NCBI RefSeq assembly: GCF_010389155.1 | Contig: NC_057769.1 | Coordinates: forward strand, 33,837,548 to 33,901,547 | From: Erigeron canadensis | Taxonomy: Eukaryota > Streptophyta > Magnoliopsida > Asterales > Asteraceae | Direction of reading: 5' to 3' | DNA: 64,000 nucleotides | Part shown: positions 34,506 to 61,855 of the stretch, one piece after another | Position numbering within the stretch: position 1 is the stretch's first letter | Layout: every line of letters starts with the position of its first letter | Made by a program: the position numbers and the translations under genes | Notes under the pieces: generated by a model | What the model was told of the DNA's origin: nothing | The model's input: the letters and a program-made list of their open reading frames with translations, nothing else | Databases searched by the model: none

Positions 34506-34535
34506 TTGTAATCAAACACAAATCTTTAGATTGTT

Positions 34536-34561
34536 AATATATATATATATATATATATATT
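34536..34561. repeat. (AT)n microsatellite
   Basis: Uninterrupted AT dinucleotides just after the Helitron. Confidence 0.8.
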
Positions 34562-34997: not shown

Positions 34998-35468
34998 TGT
35001 TAAGAAATATACAAGTTTATCTTTATTCTCACACCTTTTTGTTTATTGTAAGATTAATAGGTACTTAAATCTTAACGTTAAGGGACTGTTTATACAATTA
35101 TGATTGAAGAGAAGAAGTTCAAGGGCTATTCTGAAGATAATAGAAGATGAGGGGCTGTTATGAAGACACCTCAAACTGATGCAGAATATAAGCTCACAAT
35201 GAGCTGATTAGGAGTTCAGAATTCTAAGTCGTATTACACAAACATATATTTTCCTCTCAATTATCCGTTCATTATTCATATATATTCTGTATAATTTTGT
35301 ATATCACTTTGATATACAAATTCTGTTTCTGCTACTAATCATCATCTGGATGATTAAACTCTGTTCTTATTCATAATATTCAATTTGGTTGTATCAAATT
35401 CTTAAATAATAAATAATAACAATAATCATTCAGGTAATATTTTTTGGTTGATTGTTGATATTCTTTCA
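34998..35468 (+). repeat. 5' LTR of the copia in B2
   Basis: 471 bp, TG...CA ends, nine differences from the 3' copy at 43272. Confidence 0.95.
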
Positions 35469-35481
35469 TGGTATCAGAGCC
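35469..35481 (+). other. Primer-binding site of the copia in B2
   Basis: TGGTATCAGAGCC directly abuts the 5' LTR; complementary to initiator methionine tRNA. Confidence 0.9.
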
Positions 35482-36185
35482 GATCATCCGTGGTTGGTGA
35501 TTTTTGGGTGATTATCTTTACAGATTTATTTAGATCTTGGGCATATTTCACTTCGAAACCCTAGATTCTATTTCTGGCAATCTGTTCGATTAAATTGGGG
35601 TTTCTTTCTCAAAACCCTAATTATTTGTCTTCCGCTGCTGTTGTTCGTATTTGCCCTAATTTTTAGGGTTTCTTCTTTCAGATCCTGATTGATCTCTTAA
35701 CTAAGTGAATCAAGGGATAATTAGGGTTCATCTACCTTCTGCATTGATAGCACTGTTTGTCTTCTCTTCTCTTTTACTTATATTGTTTTGATTGTTGCTT
35801 CAACTATTATTTTCTTCTCGATTTCAAATTATTTATATATATATATATATATATATCATTTTTCTCATCTTTTTCTCGTAAAAAATAACCGTGCTAATAC
35901 TTGACCTGCCATCATTTGAGTGGTTAGGAATCCTGTCACTGGCACCTTTGTGAGATTAAGATTATTTTTTCAATTTTTTTTTAGTTTGAGAAGAAAATTC
36001 TGGTTGTTTGTCTGGTTAGTTGTGTTTTTTTTTGTTCTCTGTTTATCTACTTTCATATTTCTACTTTACTTGATATTTGTTGATTGTTCCTTGGTGTGCT
36101 TTTTAATTAAAATCTGTTTTAGTGTGTTATCCATCTATCTGCCTTTTCATTTGTTCTAGTTTTGTGATTGAATTTACTTAATAAA
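35482..36185 (+). other. Untranslated leader of the copia in B2
   Basis: About 700 bp between primer site and gag; T-rich, with an AT microsatellite near 35836-35857. The open frame at 35920-36159 is hydrophobic low-complexity translation and is not regarded as a gene. Confidence 0.6.
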
Positions 36186-37215
36186 ATGGTTAATACTCCA
36201 CCTGGTTCTGTTCATGGTAATACTCCTCCTCATTCTGTGCATAATGAAGAATCTGATCATGAAACTGATTTTGAAGTAACAAGGATAAGTAAACTTGATT
36301 TTGGTGATCCTTTGTAGTTGCATGCTAGTGATACTACAAGTACTCCTCTAATTGGTTTTAAATTGCTTGGTACTGAGAATTATACTGTATGGGCTTGTGC
36401 TATTGAATTAGCTTTGGAAACTAAAAACAAAATAGGTTTTATTGATGGTAGTTGTGTTAAAGATTGTGAAAATTTGATTCTTGCTAAACAATGGGATAGA
36501 TGTAATGCTGTTGTTCTAAATTGGATTCTTGGCTGTGTTTCTCAAGAACTATATCTAGGTCAAATCTATTCTAAGAATGTTGCAACTGTTTGGCAGGAAT
36601 TAAAAGATACTTATGATAAAGTAGATGGTTCTGTTACTTTTAATCTATATCAAATAATTAATTCTCTTGCTCAAAATGGTAGTAGTTTGTCTGAATACTA
36701 TCGTAAGCTATCTGCTCTTTGGAAACAATTTGATGCTATGATTAAACTGCTTGCTTGTTTTTGCAATGCTGCTAGAGATTTTCAAAAACATACTGATTTA
36801 ATGAAACTTATGCAGTTTTTAATGGGTCTTGATGATTGTTATATGTTTGTTAGAAGCAATTTGTTAACCAGGGATCCTTTACCTTCTGTGAAAACTGCAT
36901 TTTCTGTTGTTTCTAGGGAAGAATCTCATAGGGGTGGTATCACTGATAAATCTTCTCTTGGTAATGCATCTGCATTTGTTGCTAGGTCTGGGTATAATTC
37001 TAATAATCCAAAGTTTTCTAAGAATAGTTCATCTTTTGATTCTCATAAAGTATTTGATAATAATTTTGAGTTTAGGAAAACTTTTGATTCTGGTTCCAGA
37101 AATCTTAGACCTCCTAATCCTAATCTGAAATGTGCTAATTGTAATAAAATTGGTCATACTATTGAAAGGTGTTTCAAGTTAGGATACAAATTTGGGGGAA
37201 AGTTTAATAGCAACA
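36186..37215 (+). pseudogene. copia gag with one stop
   Basis: ATG at 36186 leads 43 codons to a TAG at 36315, after which the same frame continues open to the zinc knuckle (CANCNKIGHTIERC, C-x2-C-x4-H-x4-C, near 37132). The body matches the copia gag family (LLGTENYTVWACAIELAL, LKDTYDKVDGS, LMQFLMGLDDCY). Just after the knuckle the frame shifts by one around 37210-37245 into the protease frame, which may be a mutation or the normal gag-pol junction. The capsid would be produced only by readthrough or by an internal start. Confidence 0.85.
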
Positions 37216-38107
37216 ATGCAAGTGCAGTTGTTAATAAAAAATGGTTCTTGTGCTATGTCATCTGCTAGTGCTAGTTCCTCTTCTTCTCCCACTCTTACTT
37301 CTGATCAGATTTGCAAGCTTCTTAGTCTTCTTGATAATCAAGGATCATCTTCTGGGTTGTCTGCCAATATGGCAGGTATTCCTATGTGTAGTAATACTTG
37401 GTTGAATTTTAATGCTTTTATGTTCAATGCTTTTATAAAATGGATTCTGGATAGTGGTGCAAATCAGCATATGACTATGAGTGCTAAAACTCTTACAAAT
37501 TTTTTTGATGTTTCCGATTTAAATCTTAAAATTGGACATCCCAATGGCACCTGTGCAACTGTTAGACAAATTGGTAATCTTCATCTTAAAAATGGTGCAA
37601 TCTTATTTGATGTTTTAGTAGTACCTGAATATTCTGTTGACTTGATGTCTGTACATAAGCTATGTAGAGACAATAATCTGTATGTAGGTTTTGATGCTCA
37701 TACTTGCTATATTCAGGATTTACCTCAAAAGAACCTTCTGGGGACTGGTAGTGAGCAGGGTGGTTTATATGTGTATGATGATACTGCTGTTTGCTCTTCT
37801 GTGGTTTGTAATTCTGCTTGTCTTCCTTGTGAGTCTAAATTACTTTGGCATCAAAGACTTGGTCATCCTGCTGACCAAGCTCTTTCTGTGTTTAAAAAGA
37901 AACTTAACTATGGTTCTGATATTATTGGTCCTTGTGATGTGTGTCATAAAGCTAAACAAAGCAGGGAACCATTTCCATTGAGTGAACATAAGTCTATTAA
38001 ACTTGGTGATCTTATACACTTAGATGTTTGGGGTCCTTATAAAGTGGCTAGTAAAGAAGGATTCAAGTATTTTCTTACAATTGTAGATGATTTTACTAGA
38101 GCTGTTT
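37216..38107 (+). pseudogene. copia pol, protease and N-terminal integrase
   Basis: The frame carries the aspartic protease motif (WILDSGANQHMT near 37441), then the integrase zinc-binding part (LLWHQRLGHP...CDVCHKAKQ, HHCC type) and the start of the core (LIHLDVWGPYK, FLTIVDDFTRAV). It is cut at 38107 by a solo LTR inserted at the target TGTTT. The interrupted codon run resumes at 40606 with WTFMMKSK. Both aspartates of the integrase core start are visible on this side; the glutamate is on the other. Confidence 0.9.
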
Positions 38108-39002
38108 TGTGACAACTGTCATCTGAGCGTTTTCCTGGAACTACCTTTCTGGACACTTTAGTATGTATCGTTTAGGTACATAATTTGTTTAATAAGACTT
38201 TGCCATGGAATAAATGAATTTCTATTAGATTTGGGCTTCATGAGCGTTTAGACTTTAAATAAATTGTACGTGGACTCGAGAATAGGAGGAATACTAGATG
38301 TCCTGTGGAAATGCTAAATTAAGTAAAATATTTAAAATTAAATCAATTAAAGATTTAATAACTAAATATAGACATATTTATAGTCGTTAGAAAGCTATTG
38401 AAAAGTTACACTTAAATATGATGACAAAATAGATTAACGGATCACGAGTCTTCTAAAATGGTCGGGTCAAACGAGTTGTGTGAGGGTCAAAGCTGGTCAA
38501 ATCTTGGTCAAAGCTAGAGGAGGAACAAAACAAAACCCTAATATCCTAACCCTAACTCCTTACTTCTCCTCTCTCTCTCTCTCTCTATTTTGGCCGTCCC
38601 CCCCCCCTTCTCCTCTTCTTCCTCTCTTTTTGGCAGCCAAGGGCCACGAACCAAGACCCACCACCACGAACTACCACCACCACGAACCAACATCACCACC
38701 ACCACGAACCAACATCACGAACCACACGAACCAACCACACGGCCCACGAATTACACGAATAACACCACGAAACACCATCCAATCTTCACCTTCTTCTTCA
38801 TTTTCTTTGTTTTTGGGTAAGTTTTGTCTAGATAACGAATCTAATCGGTTATTCTTCTCAATAACCACGATTTTCTGCTATTTATACATATAGATTCGGT
38901 CATGTATATATATATCTATATAGATTCGAAAATTTTATCCTTGGGTATATATACAAACCGGTTTTCTTCTTCTTTTTCTCTTCTCAAATCCGAAAAGTAT
39001 AG

Positions 39003-39033
<31 letters not shown>

Positions 39034-40605
39034 TAGAACCGAACACTTCGAATCCGGAATCCATGTCCTTGTCTAAGATTAAAAATGTGTTGTTTTGGAT
39101 GATGTCGGTTAGAACTTGATTAAATCCGAAGGTTGATTTCGTTTTTGGTCTTGGAGGTCGATTAGGGTTCATAGATCCTCCAGAAACCATGAATTTCATG
39201 CGGTCAAACTTGGTCAACGCCGGTCAAAGGGGCAGATTCATAATTTGGTCAAAATTAGGGTTAGGGTATTATTTTGGGAATTTTAGTAAAAATTAAAGGT
39301 GTTAAATAAATTGAATGATATAATTAAATTATTTGAATTATTGTTTAAAGTTAAATCCTATTTCCCTTGAATAATTAAATATAAATATATAAAGAGTAAG
39401 TTAACTAGATATTCATATTATATATGTACAAAGAATTAAATTGATACGGACATTGGACTTAAATATATATTTATACGGATTTATTAAGCTGAACGGTTTC
39501 GTATATAAATTTACATATACATATATAAACACGAAATTTTTTGAGACGAAAAGACTTTATAAATAATAAATCTAAATCCTAAAGTATACAACTTTTCGAA
39601 CTTGATGAATTATATTGTGACGTTCCAATTGAACACTGACGAGAGATAAACATAAGACGTGACATTATTATTGGACAATTTATAAGAACAAAAGGACTAT
39701 TATATATAGTATGACATTTGACAAACACAACGACATTTCCTAAGACACTAGTATAGGACACGGACTTGTACAATTAAGTAAGTACTTACTGGGTGACTTG
39801 TGGACAATGTAGGACTTTTGGACAGATAGTGAGCTTATTTCAGTGTTTCTGACAGTTCGTATTCCTGTTCGTTGATATAGGATATTTGTGCTTGTGCTGC
39901 TTTCAAGTGAGTTTCGTAGCCCCTCTTTTTATAAGTTTTGGGGTGGAAAGTATACTTATTTTCAAACAGTTTTGTCGATTTCTGTTCTATGTTCAATATT
40001 GAGCCTGTGCGTATAGAGTTACTTGTGCCATTTGACGTGCTTTGATCTTGTTGTATGTGTGTGATTATGTGTGTTTGTTGTGCTTTGGACGTACTTATTG
40101 TGTGTGTTGAGACTTGAGACTTTGGACTAAGGCAGGTACCGTAAGGCCGGACTTTGAGACATTGAGACTTTGGACTTATTATGACGTAACTCTGCTCGTT
40201 GTATATTGAACTATTTCTGGTTTAGACTTAAAATAATCGACAAAAGACTTATTTCTTTGACTAGACATTTTGACTAAAACCTACGAACTCACCAATCTTT
40301 GTGTTGACACGTTTTAGTATACTTTTCAGGTACTCAGGTCAATCAGGGATAAGGACTGCTATGCTAGGCTGGACTTCGGAGATTAGTGCTCCTTATTTAT
40401 TTTCAAACTTTAAGGCTACATGCCTTGGATTATTTTCTTTATAGACATGGTTGTAATAAGCTATGTAGCACTATTATGACTTTGAACTCATGTTTTTGGA
40501 AATATATTTATTATATTCTATTTCATTTAGCAGTATCTATATAATTCCATGTCGTGCTGTACTTTTCATGACACCTCATGTTTCCGTCAACGGTAGGGTG
40601 TTACA
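38108..40605 (+). mobile_element. Solo LTR of 2498 bp nested in copia integrase
   Basis: Begins TGTGACAACTGTCA, ends GGTAGGGTGTTACA, and is flanked by TGTTT on both sides (38103-38107 and 40606-40610). Removing it and one TGTTT restores the integrase reading frame, which fixes the boundaries. No gag/pol is inside. The long LTR suits a gypsy/chromovirus-type parent. It contains CT- and AC-rich runs (38575-38790) and a (TA) microsatellite at about 39007-39031. The low-complexity frames in it are not genes. Confidence 0.95.
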
Positions 40606-43277
40606 TGTTTGGACTTTCATGATGAAATCTAAAATTGAGGTTTTTGAAACTGTAAAGTTTTTTATTACTTTATTAAAAACTCAATTTGAAGCCCAAGTTA
40701 AAATTGTTAGAAGTGACAATGGTATAGAGTTTGTTAATAAACAAATGCATAGTATGTTCACTTCTTTGGGAATTGTTCACCAGACCTCTTGTTCTTACAC
40801 TCCTCAACAAAATGGAGTGGTTGAAAGGAAACATAGACACCTTCTTAATGTTGCTAGGTCTCTTATGTTTCAGGGGGGAATACCTTTATATCTATGGAGT
40901 GATTGTGTGCTTACTGCTACTTATCTTATAAATAGAACTCCGTCCTCTGTTTTAAAGGGCAAAACTCCTTATGAACTAGTTTTTAAAACTGAACCTTCTT
41001 TAATTCATCTTAAAGTTTTTGGTTGTTTATGTTTTGCTACTAAGTTAAACAATTCTGATAAGTTTGATACAAGGGTTGAAAAGTGTGTTTTAATTGGTTA
41101 TTCTAATAGTAAAAAAGGTTATAAGCTTTTTAGTCTTGAGTCTAAATCTGTTGTTTTTTCTAGAGATGTTAAGTTTCATGAAAATATTTTTCCTTTCACA
41201 ATGAAAACTGATGGTTTCAATTCTGCTTACAAAGAAATAAATACTTTAAATTTTTTTGATAACATTGATACTACTAGTTCATTTAGTGATAATGTCCTTC
41301 CTTATGATGAAGAGGAAGACAAATCTGTTGATTTTGTTATTGGTAGTAGGCACCAGAATTCCTTTGGCAGATCTTTAAAAGAGAATACTGTTGAAGATTC
41401 TAATTCTGGCAGTCCTGCAGGATTACCAATAAATGAGAATTCTTCTTCTAGTAATTCTCCAGGATCTACTAGGAATTCTGAGATGTTAGCAACTCTAACA
41501 GGATGTGATAATGAAAATAATTCTGAGGGAAATGATGCTTATCATATTAATGAAGATGGATTAAGAAGATCTAATAGAAATACTAGTCTTTCTAATAGGC
41601 TAAAAGATTTTGAACTTGATGGAAAAGTTAAGTATGGTCTCAATAAGGTTGTTAATTATTCTAATTTGAGTTCTGGGATATATGCTTTTGTGTCAAACTT
41701 GAATAAAACTGTTGAGCCTAAAACTTTTTATGAGGCTGCAACTAATCAAAACTGGATTGAGGCTATGAATTTAGAAATGGAAGCCTTAAATGAAAATGGT
41801 ACTTGGATTATTACTGATCTTCCTCCTGATAGAACTACAATTGGTTGTAAATGGATTTATAAAATTAAGTACAAATCTTTTGGAGAAATAGAAAGATATA
41901 AGGCTAGACTTGTTGCTAAGGGTTATAGTCAAAAGAGTGGAATAGATTTTGATGAAACCTTTTCTCCAGTGGTTAAGATGGTTACCATTAGAACACTTCT
42001 TAATGTGGTTGTTTCTAATAATTGGCCTTTGTTCCAACTTGATGTGAATAATGCTTTTTTATATGGTGATCTTTATGAAGATATTTATATGGATCTTCCT
42101 CAAGGATATTTTGATAAATCTGATAAGAGAGTGTGTAAACTTGTTAAATCTCTATATGGCTTAAAAGAAGCACCTAGGCAATGGAATGCTAAACTTTGTA
42201 GTGCTTTAATTGAATATGGTTTTACTCAAAGTAAATGTGATTATTCTTTATTTGTTTAGTCTCATGATGACTGCTTTGTTGCATTACTTGTATATGTGGA
42301 TGATATTGTAGTTACTGGTAACAGTGTTAAAGAGATTAACAAAGTAAAAGAATTTTTGAGCTCTAAATTTAAAATAAAAGATCTTGGTAAACTTAAATAT
42401 TTTCTAGGTATTGAGGTTCTAGAGACTAAATGAGGTCTGTGTCTTAATCAAAGGAAGTATTGTCTTGAGTTGCTTAATGATTTTGGTTTGTTAGGTTGTA
42501 AACCTATGAATACTCCTTTGGAATTCAATTTAACCATGAAACCTTTTGATTCTAAGTCTAAACCTATTGAGAATATTTCTGTCTAACAAAAACTCATTGG
42601 AAAACTTATATATCTTACTTTGACAAGACCTGATATTTGTTATGTTGTTCAATGTTTAAGTCAATTTATGCATTCTCCTCTTGATATACATTTTCAATAT
42701 GGGTTGAGAATTCTTAGATATCTCGAGAATGATCCTGGAAAAGGGATACATATCACATCTTGTAAGTCTCTTACTTTTAAAGCATATGTTGATTCTGACT
42801 GGGCAAGGTGTCTTTCTACCAGAAAATCTGTTACTGGTTACGCTGTTTATCTGGGTGATTCTGTTGTATCTTGGAAGAGTAAAAAGCAGTCTACAGTAGC
42901 TAAGTCTTCTGCAGAAGCAGAATATAGGGCTCTAGCTGCTGTAACTTGTGAAATTATGTGGCTCTTAATTAAATTTGTTGAATGATCTTGGCTTTAGCAA
43001 AAATATGCTTCCTGTTTCTGTTTACTGTGACAGTAAATCTGCTATGCAAATAGCTTCAAATCATGTTTTTCATGAAAGGACCAAACATTTTGAGATTGAT
43101 CTTCACTTTGTGAGAGAGAAAATTACTTCTGGGATTATAAAGCCAATTAAAGTTGAATCTGCTCTTAATATAGCAGATTTATTTACAAAGAGTCTTACAT
43201 ATAAAAGTCATCAATTTCTTTGTAAAAAATTGGGTTTTCTGAACTTGTTTAAAGCTAAACTTGAGGGGGGATGTTAA
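40606..43277 (+). pseudogene. copia pol: integrase core, RT and RNase H with stops
   Basis: Continues with the integrase core ([29 protein letters not shown]) and then RT ([60 protein letters not shown]). RNase H follows ([62 protein letters not shown]). Stops fall at about 42257, 42431 and 42585, and a frameshift near 42965. The final stop at 43275-43277 lies inside the 3' LTR. Domains are complete in content but the polyprotein is broken. Confidence 0.9.
43262..43271 (+). other. Polypurine tract of the copia in B2
   Basis: TGAGGGGGGA immediately before the 3' LTR. Confidence 0.8.
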
Positions 43278-43742
43278 GAAATATACAAGTTTATCTTTAT
43301 TCTCACACCCTTTTGTTTATTGTAGGATTAATAGGTACTTAAATCTTAAAGTTAAGGGACTGTTTATACAATTATGATTGAGGAGAAGAAGTTCAAGGGC
43401 TATTCTGAAGATAATAGAAGATGAGGGGCTGTTATGAAGACACCTCAAACTGATGCAGAATATAAGCTCACAATGAGCTGATTAGGAGTTCAGAATTCTA
43501 ATTCGTATTACACAAACATATATTTTCCTCTCAATTATTCGTTCATTATTCATATATATTATGTATAATTTTGTATATCACTTTGATATACAAATTCTGT
43601 TTCTGCTACTAATCATCATCTGGATGATTAGATTCTGTTCTTATTCATAATATTCAATTTGGTTGTATCAAATTCTTAAATAATAAATAATAACAATAAT
43701 CATTCAGGTAATATTTTTTGGTTGATTGTTGATATTCTTTCA
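43272..43742 (+). repeat. 3' LTR of the copia in B2
   Basis: 471 bp; same ends as the 5' copy. Confidence 0.95.
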
Positions 43743-44651
43743 AGAAGCAATGTAGACAGTTGAATTGAAAGAGATACAAGTAGCGACATTAATGCAGAAA
43801 TTTGAATTGGAAGAGATAAAACAAGCAACCAGGAACTTTGAAATTTATAAAGGCAAAAATCATGATGGTGTACGGACATACCATGGGCACCTTTCCATCT
43901 CCGGAGAATCTACTACATTGGTAGCTATAAGGAGGTTTCCAGAGCATTCAGGACCACTGGATGATTATTTGAGATTAGTGGAGCTTCTCTCTAAACTGCA
44001 CCATCCAAATTGTCTCTCGGCCCTCGGTTATTGCTCTGAGGAAAACGAGACCATCATAGTGTATGAGTATCCACTTGGTAAAAGTTTATATGGATACATA
44101 GGGCGTCGTAATAGAGCTTATAATCCTACATGGCTACAAAGACTTCAAATATGCATAGGTGCAGCTCAAGGATTATCTTACCACCATAGTAATAACTTGT
44201 GTGCGCATGGTTTCGACGGCTCCTCTATCTTGGTTGATGACAAGTGGGTTGCAAAAATTGCTGATTCAGAGAAATACACGCAATATTCAACTGTAGTTAT
44301 AGAGATGCCGAAGCTGCTTATAAGTTCCCCGAATACTTTATTAATGGTTTTGAGACGAAAAAGAGCACTGTATATGCTTTCGGCATGGTGTTATTTGAAA
44401 TTCTGTGTGGAAGGCGTTGCAGTGAAGAGGTGGATGGCGTCATGTTATCAGCCAAACTTATCAAAGAGTTGTATGAAAAGAATAAACTTTATGAGATTAT
44501 TGATCCTGTTTTAAGAGAAGAGAAGACCAGCTCCAGTAATTTCATGGACAAATATTCAGCAATTGCATACAAATGCTTGTCCGATCATCCATGGAAACGA
44601 CCTTACATGGCTGATGTCACAAAAGAGCTTGAAGAGTTATTGAGTATTGAG

Positions 44652-45143
44652 GTAAGTTTTGTGGATTATTATTATACTGTAGTATTATCATTATTTATTA
44701 TTATTTGTAAGTCCACAAGTTTGAAACACTTACATTAACGACTAATATTAATTAGGATTGAGATTCACTAAAGTTAATATCAACTTGATAGGTAAATTAG
44801 TTGATGGATGTGAACCATTGGATTAAAAAATTATTTTTGAATCTTAACTTTTGATTTTAATTTAATGGTCAAGATTTTTCTAACTTATCTATAAAGTTAC
44901 TACAGTATAACTTTATGGAATCTCAATCCTATTAATTAACTAGACAAAATATGAAGATGAACAAGTTTGATCAGATGTATCAGTGATTAAACATTTAATA
45001 CATGGTCGGTTCACACTTGATAAATAAGAACATAAAATTAAACACTTGTTAATTAAGTTATTGACTAACAAAAAACTTTTGAAAGAGATTACAGAAAGTT
45101 GGTATATAGAGCATTCACCATGCAACTGTTTTCGCTGTAACAG
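44652..45143 (+). other. Presumed intron between B2 and B3
   Basis: Starts GTAAGT and ends GCTGTAACAG. AT-rich. Near its end is AGAGCATTCACC, a remnant of the usual B acceptor region. Confidence 0.55.
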
Positions 45144-45985
45144 ATGCAAAAAGCGAGAATACAGAAAGTTGAATTGAAAGAGATTCAAGTAGCAACCAAT
45201 AATTTCAAAATGGTATTGGCGAGACTTCTGCAGATGACACACGGACATACGAAGGGGAAATTTTCATCTCAGGAGTACGTACAAGGGTAAGTATAATGAG
45301 ATACCCTGAGCATTCAGAACTGGCGGATAATTATTTGGAATTCGTGGACCATTTCTCTAAACACCATCCAAATATTTTATCGCTTCTCGGTTATTGCTTT
45401 GAGGAAAAGGAGATCATTTTGGTGTATGAGTATCCAAAGGGTGTGAGTTTAGATCGGTATATAAGCAGCATGCGTAGTAGTAATACTACTACTAGTCTTA
45501 CGTGGCTACAAAGACTTCAAATATGCACAGGTGCAGCTCATGGATTATCTTACCTCCATAGTAATGAGCTATAAGATGCTGATTTCGAAAGCGCCTCTAT
45601 TTTTGTTGATGACAAGTTGGTTGCTAAAATTGCTGATCCAGAGATATACAGGCAATATTTAACTGGTTTGGAGGGTTTTCTATTTGGGGAGCCAACGAGC
45701 AATATACTATATTCTTTTGGGATGGTACTCTTTGAAGTGCTGTGTGGGAGGCTGTGCACCGAAGAGGTGGATGGCGTCATGTTATCACCCTACCTCCTCG
45801 GAGACTTGTATGAAAACAAGAAACTTGAGGAGATCATCGATCCTGCTCTGTTAAAAGAAGGTCAGCTCATATTCCCTAGACAGATATTCAGCAATTGCGT
45901 TTCGATGCTTGATACATGATCCACCCTACGATCCACATACTATGTATTTCGTCATAAAAGAGCTTGAAGAATTGTTAAAATCGAG
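45144..45985 (+). pseudogene. Broken pseudokinase module B3
   Basis: Starts at ATGCAAAAAGCG after CAG and follows the B pattern (VELKEIQVATNNF). A frameshift at about 45205-45215 leads into GETSADDTRTYEGE. The second frame holds MRYPEHSE, HHPNILSLLGYCFEE, LVYEYPKG and LTWLQRLQICTGAAHGLSYLHSN. A TAA at about 45571 and another frameshift near 45865 follow, and part of the activation-loop region is shortened. The end KELEELLKSR-like sequence stops at GAG|GTAAAA. DFG reads DPE and HRD is absent. Confidence 0.8.
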
Positions 45986-46642
45986 GTAAAATTAGAATTT
46001 TATTTTTTCATTTTACATTTTACGTCTTACTTATATATAACAAAAAAAATTTAAAACCAATAAATTGTCATCATCAACGTTCAATATATTGTACATAGAG
46101 TATCTGCCATTTTGACTAGTTATGACATATGTATTTAGTTACTTTGATAAGTTCCTTTAGAAAATGATTAATCCTTATCCTCTTAAGAATCATCTCAATA
46201 CCACCAAAATATATGAGAGGTGGATTCCATTAACTTTCTTTCCTAATTTTATCTCTTAGTTTTGCCACATGTAGAAGGACTTTTCATTAAGAGATTTCAT
46301 CAGAAGGATATATCATTTTCCTTTCTTTTTTTACTTGTGTAGATGTATATATATAGATATATACTATAACTGATAATATCTCTGTCTCATATGACCGATA
46401 TGTACGTGACCGACCCATTTGTACGTACGTTCATTTTCCTTGTGACATTCCTCTAAGTTAATTGTATTTATTAAGCCTTAATTAACTTTGTTGTTATACA
46501 CTATTCCGCATAACTGATCAATATCTGTCTCGATCATAGCATGCACTCCACTAGCCAGGTTAACAAATTGACTCATTTTTTTTCGGTAATTTGTAATTTC
46601 CGATTACTTTCTGAAAGTCATTGTTACGTTTCAAATTGACAG
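45986..46642 (+). other. Presumed intron between B3 and B4
   Basis: Starts GTAAAA and ends TTCAAATTGACAG, the acceptor shared with B1 and B5. No gene. Confidence 0.5.
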
Positions 46643-47580
46643 AGCATGTACCAAAAACTGCCGGTGAAACAGATACAATTAGTAGCCACAGTACAGGAAG
46701 TAAGATTGAAAGAGATAAAAGTAGCAACCGATAACTTTACATCGTATACTGGCGAAGATCATCATGGCGTACGGACATACGAAGGGGAACTAAATTCCAT
46801 TTTCAGAGTACCTACAAGGGTATATATAACAAGATTTCCTAAGCGTTCAGGACTCTCACTCAATCAGTTTTTGGAAAGGGTGGACATTCTCTTTAAACTA
46901 CAGCATCCAAATTATATGTCATTTTTTGGTTATTGTTATATCGAAAGTAAGAAGATTATAGTGTATGAGTATCCAGAGGGCCGGGTGAACGTTTAGATCA
47001 GTTGATAAGGCGTAGTCATAGTAGTAGTAATTATGCTACTACTAGTCTTACGTGGCTACAAAGACTTCAAATATGCGCAACTGCAGGTCATGGTTTATCT
47101 TACATCCATAGTAAATACATGCCAGAGGGTGGTTTTGAAAGCACGACCATTTTTGTCAATGACAAGTGGGTTGCTAAAATTGGCAACTCAGGAATATCCG
47201 CAGAATGTTCAACTGCAGATAATTCAGATAGCGGAGCCAACACTAATAGATCACCGGAATGCATTACTAATGGTAACGAGACGATTAAAGGCGATGTATA
47301 TTCTTTCGGCATGGTACTATTTGAAGTGTTGTGCGGGAGGCTGTGCACCGAAGAGGTGGATGGCGTCATGTTGTCAGCCCAACTCATCAAAGGGTCGTAT
47401 GAAAACAAGAAACTTGATGAGATCGTTGATCCTGCTCTGCTAAAAGAGGATCAGAAGGTGAGCTCATACTCCCTGGACAAATACTCAGCAATTGCGTATC
47501 GATGCTTGTCGCAAAAACCATATGAACGACCTTACATGGATGATGTCGTAAAAGAGCTTGAAGAGTTGTTGAGTATCGAG
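46643..47580 (+). pseudogene. Pseudokinase module B4, one frameshift
   Basis: Begins after TTGACAG with Ser-Met-Tyr-Gln-Lys, includes an ATG at 46646, and runs to GAG|GTAAGT at 47580. The only lesion seen is a 1-base frameshift near 46980-46986 (YPEG into GERLDQLIRR). Otherwise the domain is complete: VATDNF, YEGEL, VYITRFPKRSG, LQHPN, LTWLQRLQICATAGHGLSYIHS, FVNDKWVAKIGNSG, DVYSFGMVLFEVLCGRLCTEEVDGVMLSA, RPYMDDVVKELEELLSIE. HRD is replaced (PEGGFESTT) and DFG reads NSG, so it is a pseudokinase like its paralogues. It is the best preserved B module besides B5. Confidence 0.85.
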
Positions 47581-53295: not shown

Positions 53296-54210
53296 ATGTC
53301 TTCCATGACAGAGTTCCAACATCTCAAAATTTCACTCGAAGTTTTAAAATCCGCCACCAATAATTTCGCAAAAACCAACTATCTCGGGAGTGGTGGGTTC
53401 GGAAAAGTGTATAAAGGAGAAATTCTCCTATCTGGCGTGCCCACAATGATTGCTGTAAAACGTTTAGATATATCATTAGGACAAGGAACCAAAGAGTTTT
53501 GGAAAGAAATTATGTTGCTTTCTCAATACAAACATGAAAATCTTGTCTACCTTATCGGCTATTGTAATGACGGTGGTGAGAATCTCCTTGTCTACGAGTA
53601 TCTATCTAACAGAAGTCTCGACTTACACCTAAACAACGTCGATCTCTCTTGGCATCAACGCCTTATTATATGCCTGGAGGCTGCAATGGGACTACAATAT
53701 CTTCATGAACCTGTAGAGGGGAGTCACCAAAGAGTTTTACACCGAGATATCAAAAGTGCAAATATATTGTTAGATCACAATTGGAGACCTAAGATAGCTG
53801 ACTTTGGTTTGTCCAAATTTGGTCCTACTAAGGAACAATATACTTTTCTTTTTTCAAATGCAGCAGGTACAACGGGGTATTGTGATCCCTTGTATGAGCA
53901 TGAAGGCTTGTTGACAAAAGAATCTGACGTCTATTCTTTCGGTGTAGTTTTGTTCGAAATTCTTTGTGGAAGACCTGCATATATGCCAAACTATGAGGAT
54001 ATTCGCAAATATCTGAGTCCATTGTCACAGAAATGCTACAAAGAAAAGAAAATCGATACAATTATTCACATTGGTCTACGGGAAGATATTTCTCCAAAGT
54101 GTTTACAAGTGTTTTCAGCAATAGCATATCAATGTTTACAGTTAGCCCGTGCGGAACGACCAACAATGGGTAAAGTCGTGCAGCAACTTAGAGCTGCACT
54201 TTATTATCAA
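53296..54210 (+). CDS. Exon 1: active-type kinase domain A3
   Basis: The exon has 305 codons and an ATG in the same context as the other A modules. The kinase landmarks are the glycine loop G31-S-G-G-F-G36, AVK lysine 55, a helix-C glutamate near 71, HRDIKSAN at 149-156, DFG at 169-171 and DVYSFGVVLFE about residue 215. The sequence is closest to CrRLK1L/RLCK kinases but without ectodomain or membrane segment. The RD-type catalytic loop suggests a functional kinase regulated by activation-loop phosphorylation. One oddity is that the APE-equivalent position reads DPLYE instead of DPEY, so the glutamate that anchors the C-lobe is shifted or lost. The exon closes at CAA|GTAAGT, phase 0. If intron 1 were retained, translation would stop within a few codons (VSSTI). 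Confidence 0.9.
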
Positions 54211-57200
54211 GTAAGTTCTACTATCTAGATCTCCATAGCTTTCCAAACAAATTAATTAGAAGTCATTCTATACACCTACTGTATCGGATCGATTAGATCA
54301 TGAATAACCTGGGCAATACGGGAAGCAAGAATTTTGGCAATGATTTTATAAATCACCCCGATAAGACTAATTGGCCTGAAGTCATTGACAGTGAGAGGAG
54401 AATCAATCTTAGGAATGAGAGTGATGAAAGACGAGTTGCATCCAATAGGAATATCTCCATTATCAAAAAATTCCTTGATGGCCCGATATATGTCCTCCTT
54501 CATGGTGTTCCAAAAACTTTTAATAAATCCAAACGTAAATCCGTCTTTGTCACTACCACATTCCCAAACTGCTTCTTTGATCTCGTCCACACCTACAGAC
54601 TCCTCCAAAAGATGCAACTGCTCCATTGAGATCTTTTTGAATCTTTTGCTAGGACGACCAATAGGGACGATGTCATGAGAAGCAAATTTATTGATAAAGT
54701 GATTTCTGAAAACATTTTTGACGTCTTTAGGAGCCTCCAGCCAGTTACCATTATGTTTAATACCTCTCACCGCCAGTTGTTTCCTTTTCTTGTTAATTAT
54801 GCCATGATAAAATTTGGTATTTTCATCTCCTTCCACACACCATTTGTTACGACACTTTTGAATGATATCCTCCTTGTTTCTACTTTTAATATTGCGGATC
54901 TTGTCAAGAATGTCATGGCGAATATCAGCTGCGTTAGTGGTATTACTTCTGTTGTCGATCATCTGGTCGATCTTCCTTAGCTCACCATTAAGAATTTCCA
55001 GCTCCGAGTTCCTGTCTCTTTTAGCATGTTTCCACTCTTTTATCTTTTCTTTAAGACCCTTTAACTTGTTTTTAAGATTAATGATAGCAGAGGAAGATCG
55101 CTGAAAGGTACCTTGTGACCAGAATTTATTAACAACGTTGTCAAATCCCTCCTCTTCAAACCAAGAATGATACACCTTAAAAGGTATAGGTCCATAATCA
55201 GCATTAAACCTTGTAAAAAGGATGGGGTGGTGATCGGAAATAAGTCGATCCAAAGCACAAACAGAGATCGAGCCCAAGTTATTCCAAAGCGAATCAGAGA
55301 TTAAGAATCTGTCAAGTTTACTACCTTTGGAGCAAGCCTTGTCAACACGAGTAAATCTATATCCCCCCATTGGTACATCAATAAGGTTGGCATCCACAAT
55401 GAATTCATTAAACGCTATTGCATTGCTATTAGAAAAAGAAGAACCAAACCTTTCAGTAGCATTTCGAACCGAATTGAAGTCGCCAAAAATTAGATATTCA
55501 CCAGGATTTTGTGCCATGAACTCAATGATATACCTCCATAGCCTTTGTTTACCATCCTCATCTTGAGGTGCATATACGTTGACCATGTATAACTCTACTT
55601 GAGTATCAGTCCAGCTCCCCTCAACAATAAGAACATTAGAGAGTGAGATTATCTTTTTCTTACAAAAAACATTAGGATTCCAAATAGAAACAATTCCACC
55701 CGAGTGGCCATTAGCCAATAAATATGCATAATCAAATTGCATGTTGCCCCAAATTTTACGATACACAAACAAATTATCGTCATTAAGAAATGTTTCTTGT
55801 AAACCAACAAAGTTAACCCCGTGTTTCATAATGATGTTGTTAATTTTAGACAGTTTATTGGGGTCCCTCCCCCCGATCCCACAAATATTCAGAGAGAGGA
55901 TATTCATCGAGTCACATTTACCACTCGCTTCCTACTTAGGAGTTTGCTGACATCGTCAAGAGATGAAGGCATATCCAGCCCCGTAATATTGCCCATATCA
56001 GTAACTCTGGCCGGCTCTTCTTCAAAGAATGGTGTCTGTTTGGATCCTGAAGAATGAGAGGAAGGTGCAATGTTGCTGAGATTTTTCTTTTCTCTATCTG
56101 CTATATTCTTTTTAGAGGGCTCTGCTGAGTGTTTGAAACCAGGTGGACAAGAACAGGATGCACTAGGCGAGCTATTAATTAAGGGGGCTATTTGAGCTAC
56201 CCTTTTCATCGTTTGTTATTTCATTTATATTATTTTCTTCGGCTTTTTTCACTCCACCCGTCCCACCATTTTTCATAGTGTATTCTGATCCAAGATTGTC
56301 ACCCGATTGTTCCATATTGGGATTATTATTACCTGATTCTCCTTGATTGTATTTGTCCCCTAGTTGCTTCACGTTCACTTCGGGTTTTTCCTTCTTTCCA
56401 AGATATGAACAAGTATCATCAATAATGCCCGTCACCTTACAAGGATCATCGTCTTTTGACTGGGTGGCTTCCTTTGGATCCTTCACCTTAAACGCCTCTA
56501 TATCATCAAAAATCTCAATTTCATTTTCCTCTGAAGCATCAAATGAATTATTCTCTTCTACATAAGATGAACCATCTGACCCGTCTCTATCAAAGAGCTC
56601 CTCAAAATCAGGTACCCAATACGCATACTCACTAACATGTACGTCGTATAGAGTCCCATTAATCTTCACACAAATGTTGTCTTGAATTTTTCGCATATGT
56701 TTGGTAACTATGCAAACTTTCCCATTGGAAATCGATTCGCTCTTATCCATGTCAACAATATTACTTTCACCCCTTACTTGGCCAATTTTCTTAAAGGCCT
56801 TTGGAGTCCAAGCACATAAGGGTACACCAACAAGATCTAGCCAGACTACACGTTCGTCTGGTAAGAAATGTTTATCAATTGTACGATATTCAGAAAAATA
56901 CTGATTTAGTTCCACGGAATTTTTGAAAGATGCTACAGAGTTTACTTCATCTAAGTCAAACCATAACCATCTACCCCCAAGGTAAGAGATATCAAAGTTG
57001 ACAAAACCATTCAATCTTAGTATATAGTGAAGTTTGGAAATGGTTTGGATGTCTATTACCTTTGCTAAGAAAGATGAATGTTCCAATTCAAGATTCATGC
57101 AATCCTCGGTCGTGAGCTCCACAATCTTCTTAGCAGTTCTTTCGTTTGATCTTTCTTTGGAGGTGTGAATGCTTTCATTTTGATTATGTCTCACTTGTTT

Positions 57201-60200
57201 CTTCCCATTCAATGGTGGTGCTTTTTTAACAGCATCTGCATAAGAATATCTTCCATCCCCTTGGGTTGTTCCTGTTTTGGCTGATGTAGGTCGTTGAATT
57301 CGAGCCATGTCCGCAAAGAGATGGAAATTTCCCATCCAAACAGAGCGAAGATTCGATATAAGAGTGACCACATCCTTAACTCTAATATATCGAATGAACC
57401 CGAATCTGGCACCCACTTTTGATAATTTTGAAGAGACAAACACATCCACCACCGTGCCCCACTGCTCACATATACCTCGAATCTCCTGAACAGTTGCCTT
57501 CCAAGGAAGATTTGTAAGATAGATGGTTGTAGAAATTTTTTCAAGAGATTTAAAATCAGGATTTATCTTAAACCCTCGGTTGATCTCTCCTCTTGAGTAA
57601 TTTCTGTCATTATGAGTGTTGATATGCTTGCTTTTGGTCCGATCTACTCTGATCCAGCCTTCTTCTTCATCTTTTCTTCCATGGTGATGTAGATCTGTGT
57701 AGTTGTTGTCGCTGCCTGACATCTTTTTCCCCCAAACCCTTTTTTGGCTCATCCTTTGATTGAATATTTTTTCGTCCTACTGCGTTACTTTTGATTTTGT
57801 ATATCCGGTTCAATTATATGCAAACATCATAAAAATTACTGTAATTATAAAGCTGAAATTCTCTTAAAAACACTAGCAGCAACGAAAAGGTAATTATAGA
57901 TTCAATTGTCAACTTAAGCACTAATCTTGTTATCTTTTAATGGTTTTTAAAATTTAGTGAAATTTTACCCCAAACTAAATATGAGTTACTTATGAAAAGT
58001 TGTGCAGTATGGTGGGTTAGTGTGTTGATTACGTGGCATTGTGGATTGTTAAAGATAGTCTGACTACTTATGATAAACCTCATGGGAATGTATGAAAAAT
58101 CAAAACAAAATGTTCTAAACACTTGTTGTGTAATTTGATTAAATTCATGAGCTAGCCAGTTTCTAATTCCGCCCTTTCTGAAAGTCTTTTCTTATTTTAC
58201 GTTTCAAATTGACAGAGCATTTACCAAAACATAACACCGCCGGAAGGATTGTTGAAACAGATGCACGTAATGAAAATGCAGAAATTTGAATTGAAAGTGA
58301 TACAAGAAGCAACTAATAACTTTGAATTGTGTATTGCCAATGATATTCATTACGACGAACGAATATACGAAGGAGAACTGATTACAACCTTCGGAATACC
58401 TACAAGGGTATTAATAAAGAGGTATCCCGAGAAGTCGAGACGCGGTTATGATCATTATTCGAAGTTTGTGGACGTTCTCCAAAAACTACACCATCCAAAT
58501 TATATCTCTTTTCTCGGTTATTGCCATGAGAAACGGGAGCAAATTATAGTGTGGGAGTATCCAGAGCGTGGAACATTAGATCAGTATATAAGCAGAAGGC
58601 GTAGCAGTAATACTACTACTAGTCTTACGTGGCTACGTCGACTTGAAATATGCGCAGGTGTAGGTCGTGGGTTATCTTACCTCCATAGTCAAAACCTGGG
58701 CGAGGATAGTTTGAAAAGCGCCTCTATTTTTCTTGATGACAAGTGGGTTGCTAAATTTGGTGATATAGATATATCCACTCAAGGTTCAACAGGTGATAGT
58801 GCTTATAACTCCCCCGAAAGGATTCGTCATGGTGTTCATACGAGTAAAACCAATGTATATTGTTTCGGCATAATATTATTTGAAGTTCTGTGTGGGAGGC
58901 TGTGCAGCGAAGAGGTGGATGGCGTCATGTTATCGGCTGCACTCATCAAAGATTTGTATGAAAAGAAGAAACTCGATGAGATTGTTGATCCTGCTCTTTT
59001 AAGAGAAGATCAGAAGGTCAGCTCATACTCAGTGGACAAATATTCATCAATCGCATATCAATGCTTGACGGATGATTATAAAATGCGACCTTCCATGGTT
59101 GATGTCGTCAAAGAGCTTGACGAGATATTGAGTATCGAGGTAAGTCATTCATGGATTTCTGATAAACAACTTATCTTATGTTGATTTTACATCTATATTA
59201 ACTACTACATAGATTTTTAAATATTTGGTTTCAATTTTTCTCTGTTTTTAAATGTGTTTTTTCCTGCCTAACATATTAACTTGCTCCCTTTAGGGATCCG
59301 GTGATGATCACATTCAAGAAAACAGTAAGGGCGCATGTATGGGAAGGCTTCTCAGTATCGAACCCCACGAGCTTCAGTTTCCATGTAAAACTTTTAATAA
59401 TATTTAGTTCATTTCTTGAACTAGTTATTTCCACATTCAAACTCATTATCCTGCTTTCCTATATCAAATTGTGATTGTGATTAGTTTCAGTCTCATTGTG
59501 TTGTTATATATAGTTGAATTGATGAAGGAGATCTCAATTTCCCTGCTGCTAAAAAACAAAACGGATAGTCATGTAGCATTTAAGGTAACAGTAGTACTCA
59601 CTATTAGCACCACCATAAGCTTAAGATATACACTATAATGAAACATCAAACATCAAAGAGCTAAAACTTTTATGAGAAAATAACATATATACCCAAAAAT
59701 CATCACATATTTATATATATGGGAAAAGTGAATATAAGGCTATCTGGCACCTAATTTTAGGTGTGAAACCCTTTCACATAATATTTTTTTAATATATTTT
59801 GTTTAAGGAATACAATTTTGGTCCACATGAATTTTCTGGATTAAAACAATAAATATTTGAGTGTTTTACGCCTAAGTTTAGGTACCTAACAATCTTATCT
59901 AACCATCCTCTATATATATATATATATATATATATGAATTGCAGGTGAAAATTACGAAGCCAAATAAGTATTTTGTTGATCCACCTACCGGGGTTTTGTT
60001 GCCTTACACTACTAGAGATGTTACATGTTAGCTTCTGACTATTTTCAATTGCGTTTGTTTGTGTCCAGCAATTTGCTGCTGGTTAATACTCAAGTCTTCA
60101 ATTTTCAGGTACAATGAGAACTCAAAAGGAGGCACCTCAAGACATGGAATGCAGCGATAAGTTTTTGCTTCAAAGTGCAGTAGTTAGTCCTGAATTACTG

Positions 60201-60414
60201 CCAAAAGATATCAATAGAGAGCTGGTAAGTGATTTGTTTCATGATCAGATTCTTTTCACTTGATCAACTTCATAATGGAATTGAAACTTAATTCTGTACG
60301 TACCTGTAATAGTTTGAGAATAAGGAATCGAGTAATCAAGTGGAGGAATGCTTATTAAACATCCAATACGTTTCTCCCAATCCCATCAATGAACGTCCTC
60401 GTGATCCTCAGTAA
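53296..60414 (+). CDS. Tandem kinase - pseudokinase - MSP fusion protein, 7 exons, 766 aa
   Basis: Model: exons 53296-54210, 58216-59139, 59294-59384, 59514-59584, 59945-60026, 60109-60224 and 60313-60414. The total is 2301 nt with no internal stop, and intron phases are 0,0,1,0,1,0, all GT-AG. The product joins an active-looking receptor-like cytoplasmic kinase (about residues 20-300), a degenerate kinase (about 325-610) and an MSP/VAP27-like domain (about 630-755). No signal peptide or transmembrane segment is visible, so a cytosolic protein is expected. The A-B join is inferred from conserved phase-0 splice sites in three units and from the loss of a usable ATG at the B start. Two separate genes remain possible. 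Known parallels are plant tandem kinase resistance proteins (Rpg1, Yr15/WTK1) and the wheat kinase-MSP protein Snn3-D1. A role in pathogen sensing is inference. Intron 1 is enlarged by an antisense LINE. Confidence 0.8.
54276..55907 (-). pseudogene. LINE ORF2, endonuclease plus truncated reverse transcriptase
   Basis: The frame of 543 codons starts at ATG 55907. The N-terminal 230 residues form an APE-like endonuclease with its expected motifs: SLNICGIGG, a QET glutamate, YAPQDE, GDFNSV, and SDHHPI near the C-terminal catalytic His. A coiled, lysine-rich linker follows (LKNKLKGLKEKIKEWK). RT begins with FIKSFWNTMKEDI, LIPKIDSP and FRPISLIGVIYKIIAKILA, then is cut off at DLIDPIQ before the YADD motif. 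The endonuclease looks intact, but without RT catalytic residues the element cannot retrotranspose. Confidence 0.9.
55904..56209 (-). pseudogene. LINE ORF1 C-terminal tail in a shifted frame
   Basis: A frame of about 100 codons overlaps the end of the main ORF1 frame and reads a Ser/Pro-rich tail with SCSCPPGF. That motif is common near the end of plant L1 ORF1 proteins. It ends in a TGA that overlaps the ATG of ORF2 (ATGA). It is therefore best read as the displaced C-terminus of ORF1 after a frameshift near 56180-56209. Confidence 0.6.
56175..57752 (-). CDS. LINE ORF1 protein with RRM domain
   Basis: The frame of 525 codons starts at the ATG at 57752. An RRM-like RNA-binding domain lies at about residues 70-150 (IYLTNLPWKATVQEIRGICE, then GFIRYIRV), typical of one class of plant L1 ORF1 proteins. 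A conserved central block follows (WLDLVGVPLCAWTPKAFKKIGQ), then an acidic low-complexity C-terminal region. The role in the family is RNA chaperone and RNP assembly for retrotransposition. The C-terminus is probably shifted out of frame (see 55904-56209). Transcription on this strand would be antisense to the host intron. Confidence 0.85.
   Translation of the reverse strand: MSQKRVWGKKMSGSDNNYTDLHHHGRKDEEEGWIRVDRTKSKHINTHNDRNYSRGEINRGFKINPDFKSLEKISTTIYLTNLPWKATVQEIRGICEQWGTVVDVFVSSKLSKVGARFGFIRYIRVKDVVTLISNLRSVWMGNFHLFADMARIQRPTSAKTGTTQGDGRYSYADAVKKAPPLNGKKQVRHNQNESIHTSKERSNERTAKKIVELTTEDCMNLELEHSSFLAKVIDIQTISKLHYILRLNGFVNFDISYLGGRWLWFDLDEVNSVASFKNSVELNQYFSEYRTIDKHFLPDERVVWLDLVGVPLCAWTPKAFKKIGQVRGESNIVDMDKSESISNGKVCIVTKHMRKIQDNICVKINGTLYDVHVSEYAYWVPDFEELFDRDGSDGSSYVEENNSFDASEENEIEIFDDIEAFKVKDPKEATQSKDDDPCKVTGIIDDTCSYLGKKEKPEVNVKQLGDKYNQGESGNNNPNMEQSGDNLGSEYTMKNGGTGGVKKAEENNINEITNDEKGSSNSPLN
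58216..59139 (+). CDS. Exon 2: pseudokinase domain B5
   Basis: The exon has 308 codons, opening Ser-Ile-Tyr-Gln-Asn right after TTGACAG and closing at GAG|GTAAGT. The kinase scaffold is clear: VIQEATNNF, IYEGEL, VLIKR with a lysine at protein position about 373, LHHPN, LGYC, LTWLRRLEICAGVGRGLSYLHS, FLDDKWVAKFGDIDIS, NVYCFGIILFEVLCGR and RPSMVDVVKELDEIL. Catalysis is not expected. The glycine loop is replaced by NDIHYDER. HRD is EDS (468-470) and the catalytic-loop Asn is Ser. DFG is DID (488-490). If this exon were a separate gene, the first usable ATG would be 58261. All B modules in the window lack HRD and DFG, so the loss is ancestral to the duplications. Confidence 0.9.
59294..60414 (+). 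CDS. Exons 3-7: MSP (VAP27-like) domain
   Basis: Five exons encode 153 residues: 59294-59384, 59514-59584, 59945-60026, 60109-60224 and 60313-60414. The translation shows MSP landmarks in order: LLSIEPHELQFPFEL, LLLKNKTDSHVAFKVKI, NKYFVDPPTGVLLP, RTQKEAPQDMECSDKFLLQS and NQVEECLLNIQYVSPNP, then a TAA at 60412. MSP domains of VAP/VAP27 proteins bind FFAT peptides at ER contact sites. The Lys residues of FKVK and of DKFLL, at positions used for FFAT binding in VAPs, are kept, while Arg of the RYCVRP motif is replaced (KYFVDP). Unlike VAP27 there is no coiled coil or C-terminal membrane anchor. No start codon or promoter of its own is apparent, so it is read as the tail of the kinase gene. Confidence 0.85.
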
Positions 60415-61855
60415 GAGAAGCTCGGAAGAATTAAGGTCCTCTCCAAGAGTGCCCATAATAATATCCAAAGCATCGGCTATATATGATTGATGAGGTAATA
60501 TATATATATATATATTTGAACTTATATCGGTGTTATAAGCATTCTTATTAACCTTAAAAATCAATTAAGCTAGATATTAATGTTGACGAGGTTTGATAAT
60601 AGATCGATGAAGAACAAATTTGTAATTGAATCACTCAATTTTGTTGAATCAAATATACATACAATAATATATGTATACAGCTTTTAGCTTTGATGACATG
60701 AATTTGAAACTAATTAACAATCATCCTTATTAATTTTTTTTTTTTTAAACGATGTGATCTTTGTTTTTGTAAAGAGTACACAATGGTTCTGAACCAGAAC
60801 ATCCCTAAGGTTTACATAGCTGATCCTTACACTGGCTATATCACTATTTACAAATAAAATCCTACAAGTCGATATATATAAAAATAAAAGTTATGATCCC
60901 GTTACGGTATCACTCTCCATGCCACTTAATCTAGACCAAAAACCGACGTGGTCCATCATTAAAGTTGGGCCAGCAGGGCGACGAGCCAACGAGCTGTAAC
61001 ACACGCATCCGGTATCAGTTTTTTAGTCCATATCAATTCATATCAGGCCCAACTTTTAAATATTCTTAGAGGGTGATATTTTACACGGCCCCAACTCTAA
61101 ATTGCTTTTTGCTCATTTGACAACCTTTCATATTATTTTAGATTTTCAAAAGCACACAGGAAGTAATTTAGAATTTTAGATAGCTTTGGTTTATTCACTT
61201 ATTTGGTTGCAGTTTTGAAGAATATATATGTTTTATTACCATTGAATATTGGTATTCTTATTTTTTATTTTTTATCTTTTAAGAAAGGTAGTAATTCATT
61301 ATTAGTTATCTAGCTACGGCCAACTAGGTTCCATCCAAGTATAATAGTACTATAGTAGAGATGATGTTTACTTTCGAAGAAAGATCGTGTTTTCTCGTTG
61401 TACATGTTGTCCCTCTAATAAAAATCATGAACTTAATTTCCTACACCTTATTATAGAATCAATACGCTTGGATAGCTCAACAACTTCTCTAAACTTGCAC
61501 GTACACAATGATGGTGCGGAATAGCTGCAATAATCCGAGTCAAGTAACAAATTCAAGTCTATTACTTGTTTTTCCGAATTTAATTGATTTCTAATTTTAT
61601 GTCTTGTGCCGTAATTAGATAGATAAATCATATATTGCATTTATGTTCTATAGGAATCTAGGTACTATACCTTGGTATTTTTTTATTTTTTTTTAATTTG
61701 AACAATCATAGAAGATAGATTTCTAATTTCAGCTTAACTTTTTTTTGTATAAAAGTAAAAACAAAAATTATAAAGCTATTTCATTATGTTGAATTTTCAT
61801 TTAACAATATGTACAGTACATGTACATCCCATGTAAATTGTGATCTACGAAAACC
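60415..61855. other. Downstream of the intact gene
   Basis: No gene. It includes the presumed 3' UTR and a (TA) run at 60498-60512. A patch at 60960-61170 shared with 49170-49370 marks the downstream edge of the duplicated unit. A polyadenylation site was not identified with confidence. Confidence 0.45.

Follow-up and report, generated by a model that had tools for sequence, protein, structure and literature searches.

The locus studied here raises the question whether one plant gene encodes a kinase, a pseudokinase and a major sperm protein (MSP) domain, and which function such a protein may have. The locus lies in Erigeron canadensis (assembly of 426 Mb), at C9:33837548-33901547. This whole analysed stretch of 64,000 nucleotides is called the window, and the positions given below refer to it unless a chromosome is named. 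K1 denotes the first kinase (exon 1), K2 the second (exon 2) and unit III the gene under study. On balance it appears probable that unit III encodes a cytosolic tandem kinase of the Asteraceae, belonging to a CrRLK1L-like family expanded in these plants, which gained the MSP domain of VAP27 by exon shuffling and most likely serves as an integrated-domain sensor.

The gene model was obtained by joining seven exons, which yields a coding sequence of 2301 nt for 766 amino acids (aa) with no internal stop:

53296-54210, forward strand: exon 1, K1, RD kinase, 305 aa, 3' end CAA/GTAAGT in phase 0
54211-58215, forward strand: intron 1, 4005 nt
58216-59139, forward strand: exon 2, K2, pseudokinase, 308 aa, holding Met 58270, where the public protein P0003 starts
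59294-59384, forward strand: exon 3, linker (including QENSKGACMG) and start of the MSP domain
59514-59584, forward strand: exon 4, MSP domain
59945-60026, forward strand: exon 5, MSP domain
60109-60224, forward strand: exon 6, MSP domain
60313-60414, forward strand: exon 7, end of the MSP domain and stop

All six introns are of the GT-AG type, with end phases of 0, 0, 1, 0, 1 and 0. When the coding sequence was shuffled by nucleotide, the open frame was kept in none of 2000 cases. The seven-exon frame of 2301 nt with GT-AG sites and consistent phases, as proposed by an earlier reading of the sequence alone (the sequence-only reading), was reproduced exactly. The domain search suggested there was run with Pfam and delivered the three expected domains: two kinase stretches with 227.5 bits (cut-off 23.1) and Motile_Sperm at residues 633-735 with 81.5 bits (cut-off 25.9). 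The order kinase, kinase, Motile_Sperm is thus seen directly in the product. An Rfam scan of the 64-kb window gave no match. At the level of the sequence the gene model can be regarded as confirmed, real and intact-looking.

The two kinases differ in their catalytic residues, which are read directly from the alignment. At 13 aligned positions K1 retained the glycine loop, the VAIK Lys, the helix-C Glu, HRD, the catalytic-loop Lys, the Asn and DFG; Leu stands in place of its APE Glu, as it does in 148 of 421 aligned kinase domains. K2 retained the VAIK Lys, the catalytic-loop Lys and the DFG Asp. Changes were found from HRD to EDS, from Asn to Ser, from the DFG Gly to Asp and from the helix-C Glu to Phe, and the glycine loop is missing. 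Judged by these residues, K1 is a kinase of the active type and K2 a pseudokinase; K1 would be expected to phosphorylate. The assignment to an RD kinase, a degenerate kinase and a VAP27-like MSP domain was borne out by Pfam, by these residues and by the MSP intron positions. K1 and K2 share 31% identity. K2 as a fresh tandem copy of K1 within the K1-K2-MSP gene was rejected, since K2 stands in an older, separate clade of the kinase tree.

In the predicted structure of P0003 the kinase part (K2) mostly reached a confidence score (pLDDT) above 70. The MSP part remained below 55; hence the model is uninformative on this domain. The solved structures closest to the K2 model are FERONIA (34-35% identity) and then an Arabidopsis receptor-like kinase (33-34%). 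Among the sunflower relatives, several carry the name RLK-Pelle-CrRLK1L-1 and others RLK-Pelle-LRR-I-1. The malectin-like CrRLK1L ectodomain is absent from the product: the 766-aa protein begins at the kinase, and Pfam detected kinases and MSP, no malectin. Its location is presumably cytosolic.

The sequence-only reading had position 54210 spliced to 58216, which would join K1 to K2. For this join the other kinase copies of the window are informative:

9644-12458, forward strand: unit I, K1-like 9644-10562 and K2-like 11557-12458, both frame-broken, 994 nt apart
28934-47580, forward strand: unit II, K1 interrupted by a Copia element, with K2 in three copies
28934-29074 and 31761-32432, forward strand: K1 pieces of unit II
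43765-44651, 45102-45977 and 46643-47580, forward strand: K2 copies of unit II

The start of intron 1 aligns with the introns after K1 in unit I over 43 nt (to 54253) and in unit II over 62 nt (to 54272). Its end aligns with the introns before K2 in unit I over 21 nt (from 58195) and in copy IIc over 42 nt (from 58174). The corresponding exon 1 end and donor are present in units I and II and in the genes of the public proteins P0031, P0022 and P0005; the exon 2 acceptor TTTCAAATTGACAG/AGCAT and the donor GAG/GTAAGT are conserved in other copies. The conservation of the K1-K2 intron ends is therefore observed directly. Pieces of C9:33758400-33980200 were compared with 19 public proteins, and seven models matched. 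In P0031, P0022 and P0005 a single gene covers K1 and K2, and a phase-0 intron sits at the equivalent position (170, 605 and 661 nt, respectively); over the other genes or units the K1-K2 introns range from 170 to 994 nt. P0006, P0011 and P0025 show the same K1-K2 order, with no match above 96% within these pieces.

Furthermore, a tree of 64 kinase domains was examined. The splits within the K1 clade mirror those within the K2 clade, with P0006, P0022, P0025 and P0031 on one side and P0005, P0011 and unit III on the other; the last K2 of P0006 is an exception and falls with the latter set. In one protein each from Tanacetum and Artemisia (P0054, P0066), the second kinase is sister to the Erigeron K2 clade and the first one falls within the 17-row clade that holds K1. 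Thus, the linked K1-K2 pair looks older than Erigeron. P0032 (source 'lgn', contigs of at most 2430 bases) has an uninterrupted frame of 688 aa with K1, K2 and a charged tail resembling the tails of P0022 and P0025. Such a frame is what the spliced mRNA of a relative would give, and 'lgn' presumably denotes assembled read data. For unit III, a single K1-K2-MSP protein is likely from these comparisons, and one mRNA containing K1 would be expected.

Selection was estimated as the pairwise ratio of nonsynonymous to synonymous substitutions (dN/dS, method NG86), with cluster copies cut by tblastn and stop codons skipped (the edge of P0012_K2b held one). Among the copies of the mapped cluster the ratio was 0.27-0.56 for K1 (median 0.39, 15 pairs) and 0.55-0.91 for K2 (median 0.72, 21 pairs), where some K2 row edges may include intron codons. 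The K1 of unit III compared with five intact K1 copies gave 0.31-0.56. For the window copies, some of them broken, values of 0.46-0.59 (three K1 copies, 3 pairs) and 0.70-0.93 (K2, 5 pairs) were calculated. By these ratios K1 is under constraint, and K2 is either relaxed or diversifying.

Several points weigh against a single sensor gene. From Met 58270 to the stop the gene model is 100% identical to the public E. canadensis protein P0003 (443 aa), which, to judge from its name, appears to be a RefSeq prediction. This public model of the locus starts inside exon 2 and comprises K2 and MSP only. Comparison of introns and tree gives good support for linking exons 1 and 2, but the public model leaves out K1. 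K1 is not connected to K2 in four of the seven public models matched there: P0003 itself, P0122 (K1 alone), P0012 (K2-K2-K2), situated 9.6 kb after P0122, and P0125 (K1 and another exon). Intron 1 contains the following element:

54276-57776, reverse strand: fragment of a long interspersed nuclear element (LINE) inside intron 1, with RRM ORF1 and the endonuclease part of ORF2 (ORF, open reading frame)

No reverse-transcriptase match was found in this LINE fragment, and the search for a target-site duplication revealed no shared words of 9 or more bases between the compared stretches. As the fragment lacks its 3' part, a rearrangement at intron 1 is possible. The K2 ratios of 0.55-0.93 could reflect relaxation instead of diversification. 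Finally, we infer the immune role, and with it the sensing of pathogens, from the kinase family and from parallels in wheat.

The LINE insertion may have split an old K1-K2-MSP gene, so that two genes exist today, one for K1 only with its stop at 54228 and one for the pseudokinase with MSP. P0003, beginning at Met 58270 without K1, would be the second of them; the frame of exon 1 indeed stays open to the stop at 54228, and the neighbouring K1-only model P0122 reads through the corresponding donor. However, no K1 protein of unit III was present among the best 120 of 3441 (about 421-1341 aa) and the best 120 of 7549 matches (about 170-543 aa) of two kinase-protein listings, so no rival K1 gene is seen. 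The codons of exon 2 upstream of Met 58270 are conserved in other copies together with the acceptor. Large introns bearing transposons are often still spliced. The LINE fragment accounts for about 3.5 kb of the 4005-nt intron, and the remaining part of about 0.5 kb is within the range of the other K1-K2 introns. A present-day division into two genes is considered rather unlikely. The probabilities given to this and the following alternatives are not mutually exclusive.

Unit III could also be an expressed or silent relic in a decaying locus, since it stands among broken kinase copies. Units I and II are frame-broken or split by a transposon, the dN/dS values of K2 are high, and the tail of VAP27 is absent. 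Against decay, unit III is open across 766 codons with good splice sites, and its K1 shows the ratios of 0.31-0.56 towards the five intact copies. Decay is judged distinctly improbable, and one K1-K2-MSP gene is retained as the preferred reading.

Unit II contains Copia-like polyprotein open frames at 29846-31810 (reverse strand) and 36318-42259 (forward strand). The kinase cluster extends beyond the window over C9:33910147-33977637 (L009-L011, L025-L029) with more K1 copies and runs of three and five K2 copies; K1-K2 genes matching P0031, P0022 and P0005 are located in this region.

The origin of the third domain is visible in its introns. The four introns between exons 3 and 7 match those of the VAP27 gene L008 in position and phase (compared by eye; frame confirmed), and the exon 3 linker corresponds to VAP27 sequence upstream of the ATG. 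The domain was thus captured as genomic DNA, and retroposition, considered as another route, was rejected on account of these four introns. The stretch shared with other kinase-MSP genes can be delimited as a cassette:

59189-60580, forward strand: MSP cassette, resembling the kinase-MSP-MSP genes of C5 in pieces of DNA that extend to the introns

Similarity to the C5 genes starts at 59189, inside intron 2. A genome search was carried out with 59294-60600 as query, in which 40 of 1373 candidates were scored, so the places found are a lower bound. Cassette-like DNA was detected in at least two places on C5 (the genes of P0001 and P0002), at least three on C1 and also on C315. Three VAP27 loci matched in or near the exons; a single one did so across intron 6 as well. 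A short repeat within intron 4 (59707-59935) has dozens of similar copies on many chromosomes and is probably a small transposable element. L019, L020 and L021 (C1 near 37.31 and 37.33 Mb; C315) are further kinase-MSP-MSP copies; in L020 and L021 the kinase matches occur in small pieces only. Three MSP matches were observed within 9 kb at C3:27355750-27364447 (L001, L002, L004). Their open frames of 261, 315 and 129 aa each cover most of the MSP domain free of introns, in contrast to VAP27.

A tree of 11 MSP domains, three of them without the first exon, separated six kinase-fused sequences from five VAP sequences (four from E. canadensis, one from Striga) by a branch with support of 100/99. 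The shared origin of the fused MSP domains is directly apparent from this tree and the common cassette. In the tree of 64 kinase domains the kinases of P0001 and P0002 fall in a clade distinct from K1 and K2. A single capture from VAP27, after which the cassette reached a second kinase lineage (in either direction), is therefore the probable course of events. A separate capture by each kinase gene is not favoured, as the six fused MSP domains form one clade. The kinase-MSP-MSP genes were rejected as direct parents of the whole gene, because their kinase belongs to another clade.

According to the sequence-only reading, the MSP domain could tether the protein to partners at the membrane of the endoplasmic reticulum (ER) through FFAT peptides. 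We take the YCVRP, FKVK and DKF positions to be relevant for FFAT binding. The Arg of YCVRP was lost in all six kinase-fused domains and kept in all five VAP sequences. All six fused domains retain the Lys of DKF, and five of them have the second Lys of FKVK. In unit III both the FKVK Lys and the DKF Lys are retained, and one Thr of KVKTT is changed to Ile. For the VAP27 tail with its anchor, searched with residues 325-426 of the Striga VAP protein P0004, no match was found in the window. Directly past the MSP domain the frame stops; at 60393-60450 similarity to VAP27 seems, by eye, to continue briefly in other frames. The proposed tether is weakened by the missing tail and by the loss of the YCVRP Arg. 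A non-immune scaffold, in which the MSP domain would bind FFAT-like partners at ER contact sites and bring the kinase there, is nevertheless conceivable in view of the MSP score far above the Pfam cut-off and the two retained Lys residues. The membrane anchor not being found, the lost Arg and the exchanged Thr argue against it, and it leaves the diverse domains on related kinases unexplained. We regard such a scaffold as very unlikely and continue with the integrated-domain sensor.

These diverse domains were surveyed in the 240 best-scoring kinase proteins, mostly from Asteraceae and many of them gene predictions, using precomputed Pfam columns inspected by eye. Transposon, kinase-like and a few doubtful entries were excluded from the count. 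At least one non-kinase domain was present in 81 of the 240 proteins, with about 20 kinds in total and PP2 in 34 of the 81. A sample of 20 proteins, mostly picked for carrying a non-kinase entry, was rescanned with Pfam; 17 had a non-kinase domain above the cut-off. RIN4/NOI (2), TIR, formin FH2, glutaredoxin, cytochrome b5, jacalin, IQ, C2, CHY zinc finger, homeodomain, PGG, starch-binding, Obg, NAF, BSK1-type TPR and MLLE were identified. No non-kinase domain above the cut-off was found in the rescan of P0092 and P0053, and the Vta1 match of P0023 overlaps the kinase. Fusions with RIN4/NOI, TIR and formin, among others, occur in several Asteraceae species (P0041, P0227, P0062, P0063 and others). 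PF00635 together with a kinase was found, among the matches listed, for P0001-P0003 only.

A wider interpretation is offered tentatively and falls somewhat short of probable. Asteraceae may have built their own class of immune sensors with integrated domains, for which cytosolic CrRLK1L-like kinases, and not nucleotide-binding leucine-rich repeat receptors (NLRs), serve as the base. The exon after the kinase or pseudokinase would then be a repeated docking place for intron-bounded pieces of effector targets, with RIN4/NOI, the VAP27 MSP, TIR, C2, BSK1-TPR, formin and jacalin as candidates, and the VAP27 MSP would have been recruited independently in grasses and daisies.

Tandem kinase proteins such as Rpg1 and Yr15/WTK1 and the kinase-MSP protein Snn3-D1 are plant immune components, and the claimed likeness of unit III to both groups is supported. 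As in Rpg1, Yr15/WTK1, Sr62 and Pm24/RWT4, one apparently active and one degenerate kinase would be combined in one polypeptide. Unlike these wheat and barley proteins, the kinases here are CrRLK1L-like, occur in Asteraceae and are followed by an MSP domain, and a role in resistance would be assumed by analogy. In the 2025 survey of Reveguk, tandem kinases are, by its title, reportedly placed across the plant kingdom. In the available parts of the literature on 'tandem kinase' and 'major sperm protein', with the main tandem-kinase survey outside the search, no tandem kinase with MSP is described. The earlier statement that both layouts at once are not described holds to this extent, but kinase-MSP fusions as such are known in wheat (Snn3, Sm1).

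According to the Sr43 paper, kinase fusions appear to be unique to Triticeae, with Snn3 as kinase-MSP, and an integrated-decoy model was proposed (PMC10260397). Kinase fusion proteins were likewise described as specific to cereals, and Sr62 and WTK3 need an NLR (PMC12830362). In Sm1 an NLR is combined with a kinase and an MSP domain (PMC9289626). By domain description, Snn3-D1 (kinase-MSP) and Sm1 (NLR-kinase-MSP), which are wheat genes of plant-pathogen or plant-insect interactions, resemble unit III in combining kinase and MSP (PMC10260397, PMC9289626); they have one kinase, the E. canadensis gene two. They belong to a different plant family, and the MSP captures are therefore probably independent. 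In Lr9 (WTK6-vWA) a captured domain other than a kinase follows the tandem kinase, and single-kinase versions with that domain exist; the second kinase and vWA of Lr9 were proposed as decoys (PMC10260399). The likeness to unit III ends at the extra domain, vWA there and MSP here, and at the kinase subfamily. A kinase fused to a non-kinase domain, as in Snn3, Sm1 and Lr9, is found in unit III, and the K2-MSP fusion is also part of the public model P0003.

Among the closer relatives, P0001 and P0002 of E. canadensis share the MSP cassette at the DNA level, introns included, but have a single kinase of another clade and two MSP domains. VAP27/PVA proteins have an MSP domain with identical intron positions; in unit III no coiled coil or membrane anchor was found, and kinases precede the MSP. 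For VAP27-1 an interaction with ACD11, a regulator of cell death, was reported (PMC11980575). In sunflower, the broomrape-resistance interval OrDeb2 contains four CrRLK1L-1 kinases, two of which, of about 660 aa, have a second kinase without active site; their PANTHER family comprises 420 sunflower, 245 lettuce and 20 Arabidopsis genes (PMC8866362). For OrAnom1, proteins with one and with two kinases were described (PMC10884359). These sunflower dual kinases resemble unit III in being clustered, in having a second kinase domain and in missing the receptor part; MSP is not mentioned for them in the available parts of both papers.

As a mechanism, we propose that a K1-K2 tandem kinase acquired the VAP27 MSP through exon shuffling at the intron after K2. 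K2 and MSP would be the fast-changing or target-like parts contacted by a pathogen molecule, and K1 would then phosphorylate a partner, perhaps a helper NLR, leading to defence.

With this locus, its neighbours and its relatives, the kinase-fusion design so far reported for Triticeae or cereals has a similar form in Asteraceae. The route of domain capture is visible at the locus, and captured domains can be named as candidate decoys; MSP, which wheat Snn3 and Sm1 contain as well, is the clear first candidate. Members of the kinase family fall in broomrape-resistance intervals of sunflower (PMC8866362, PMC10884359).

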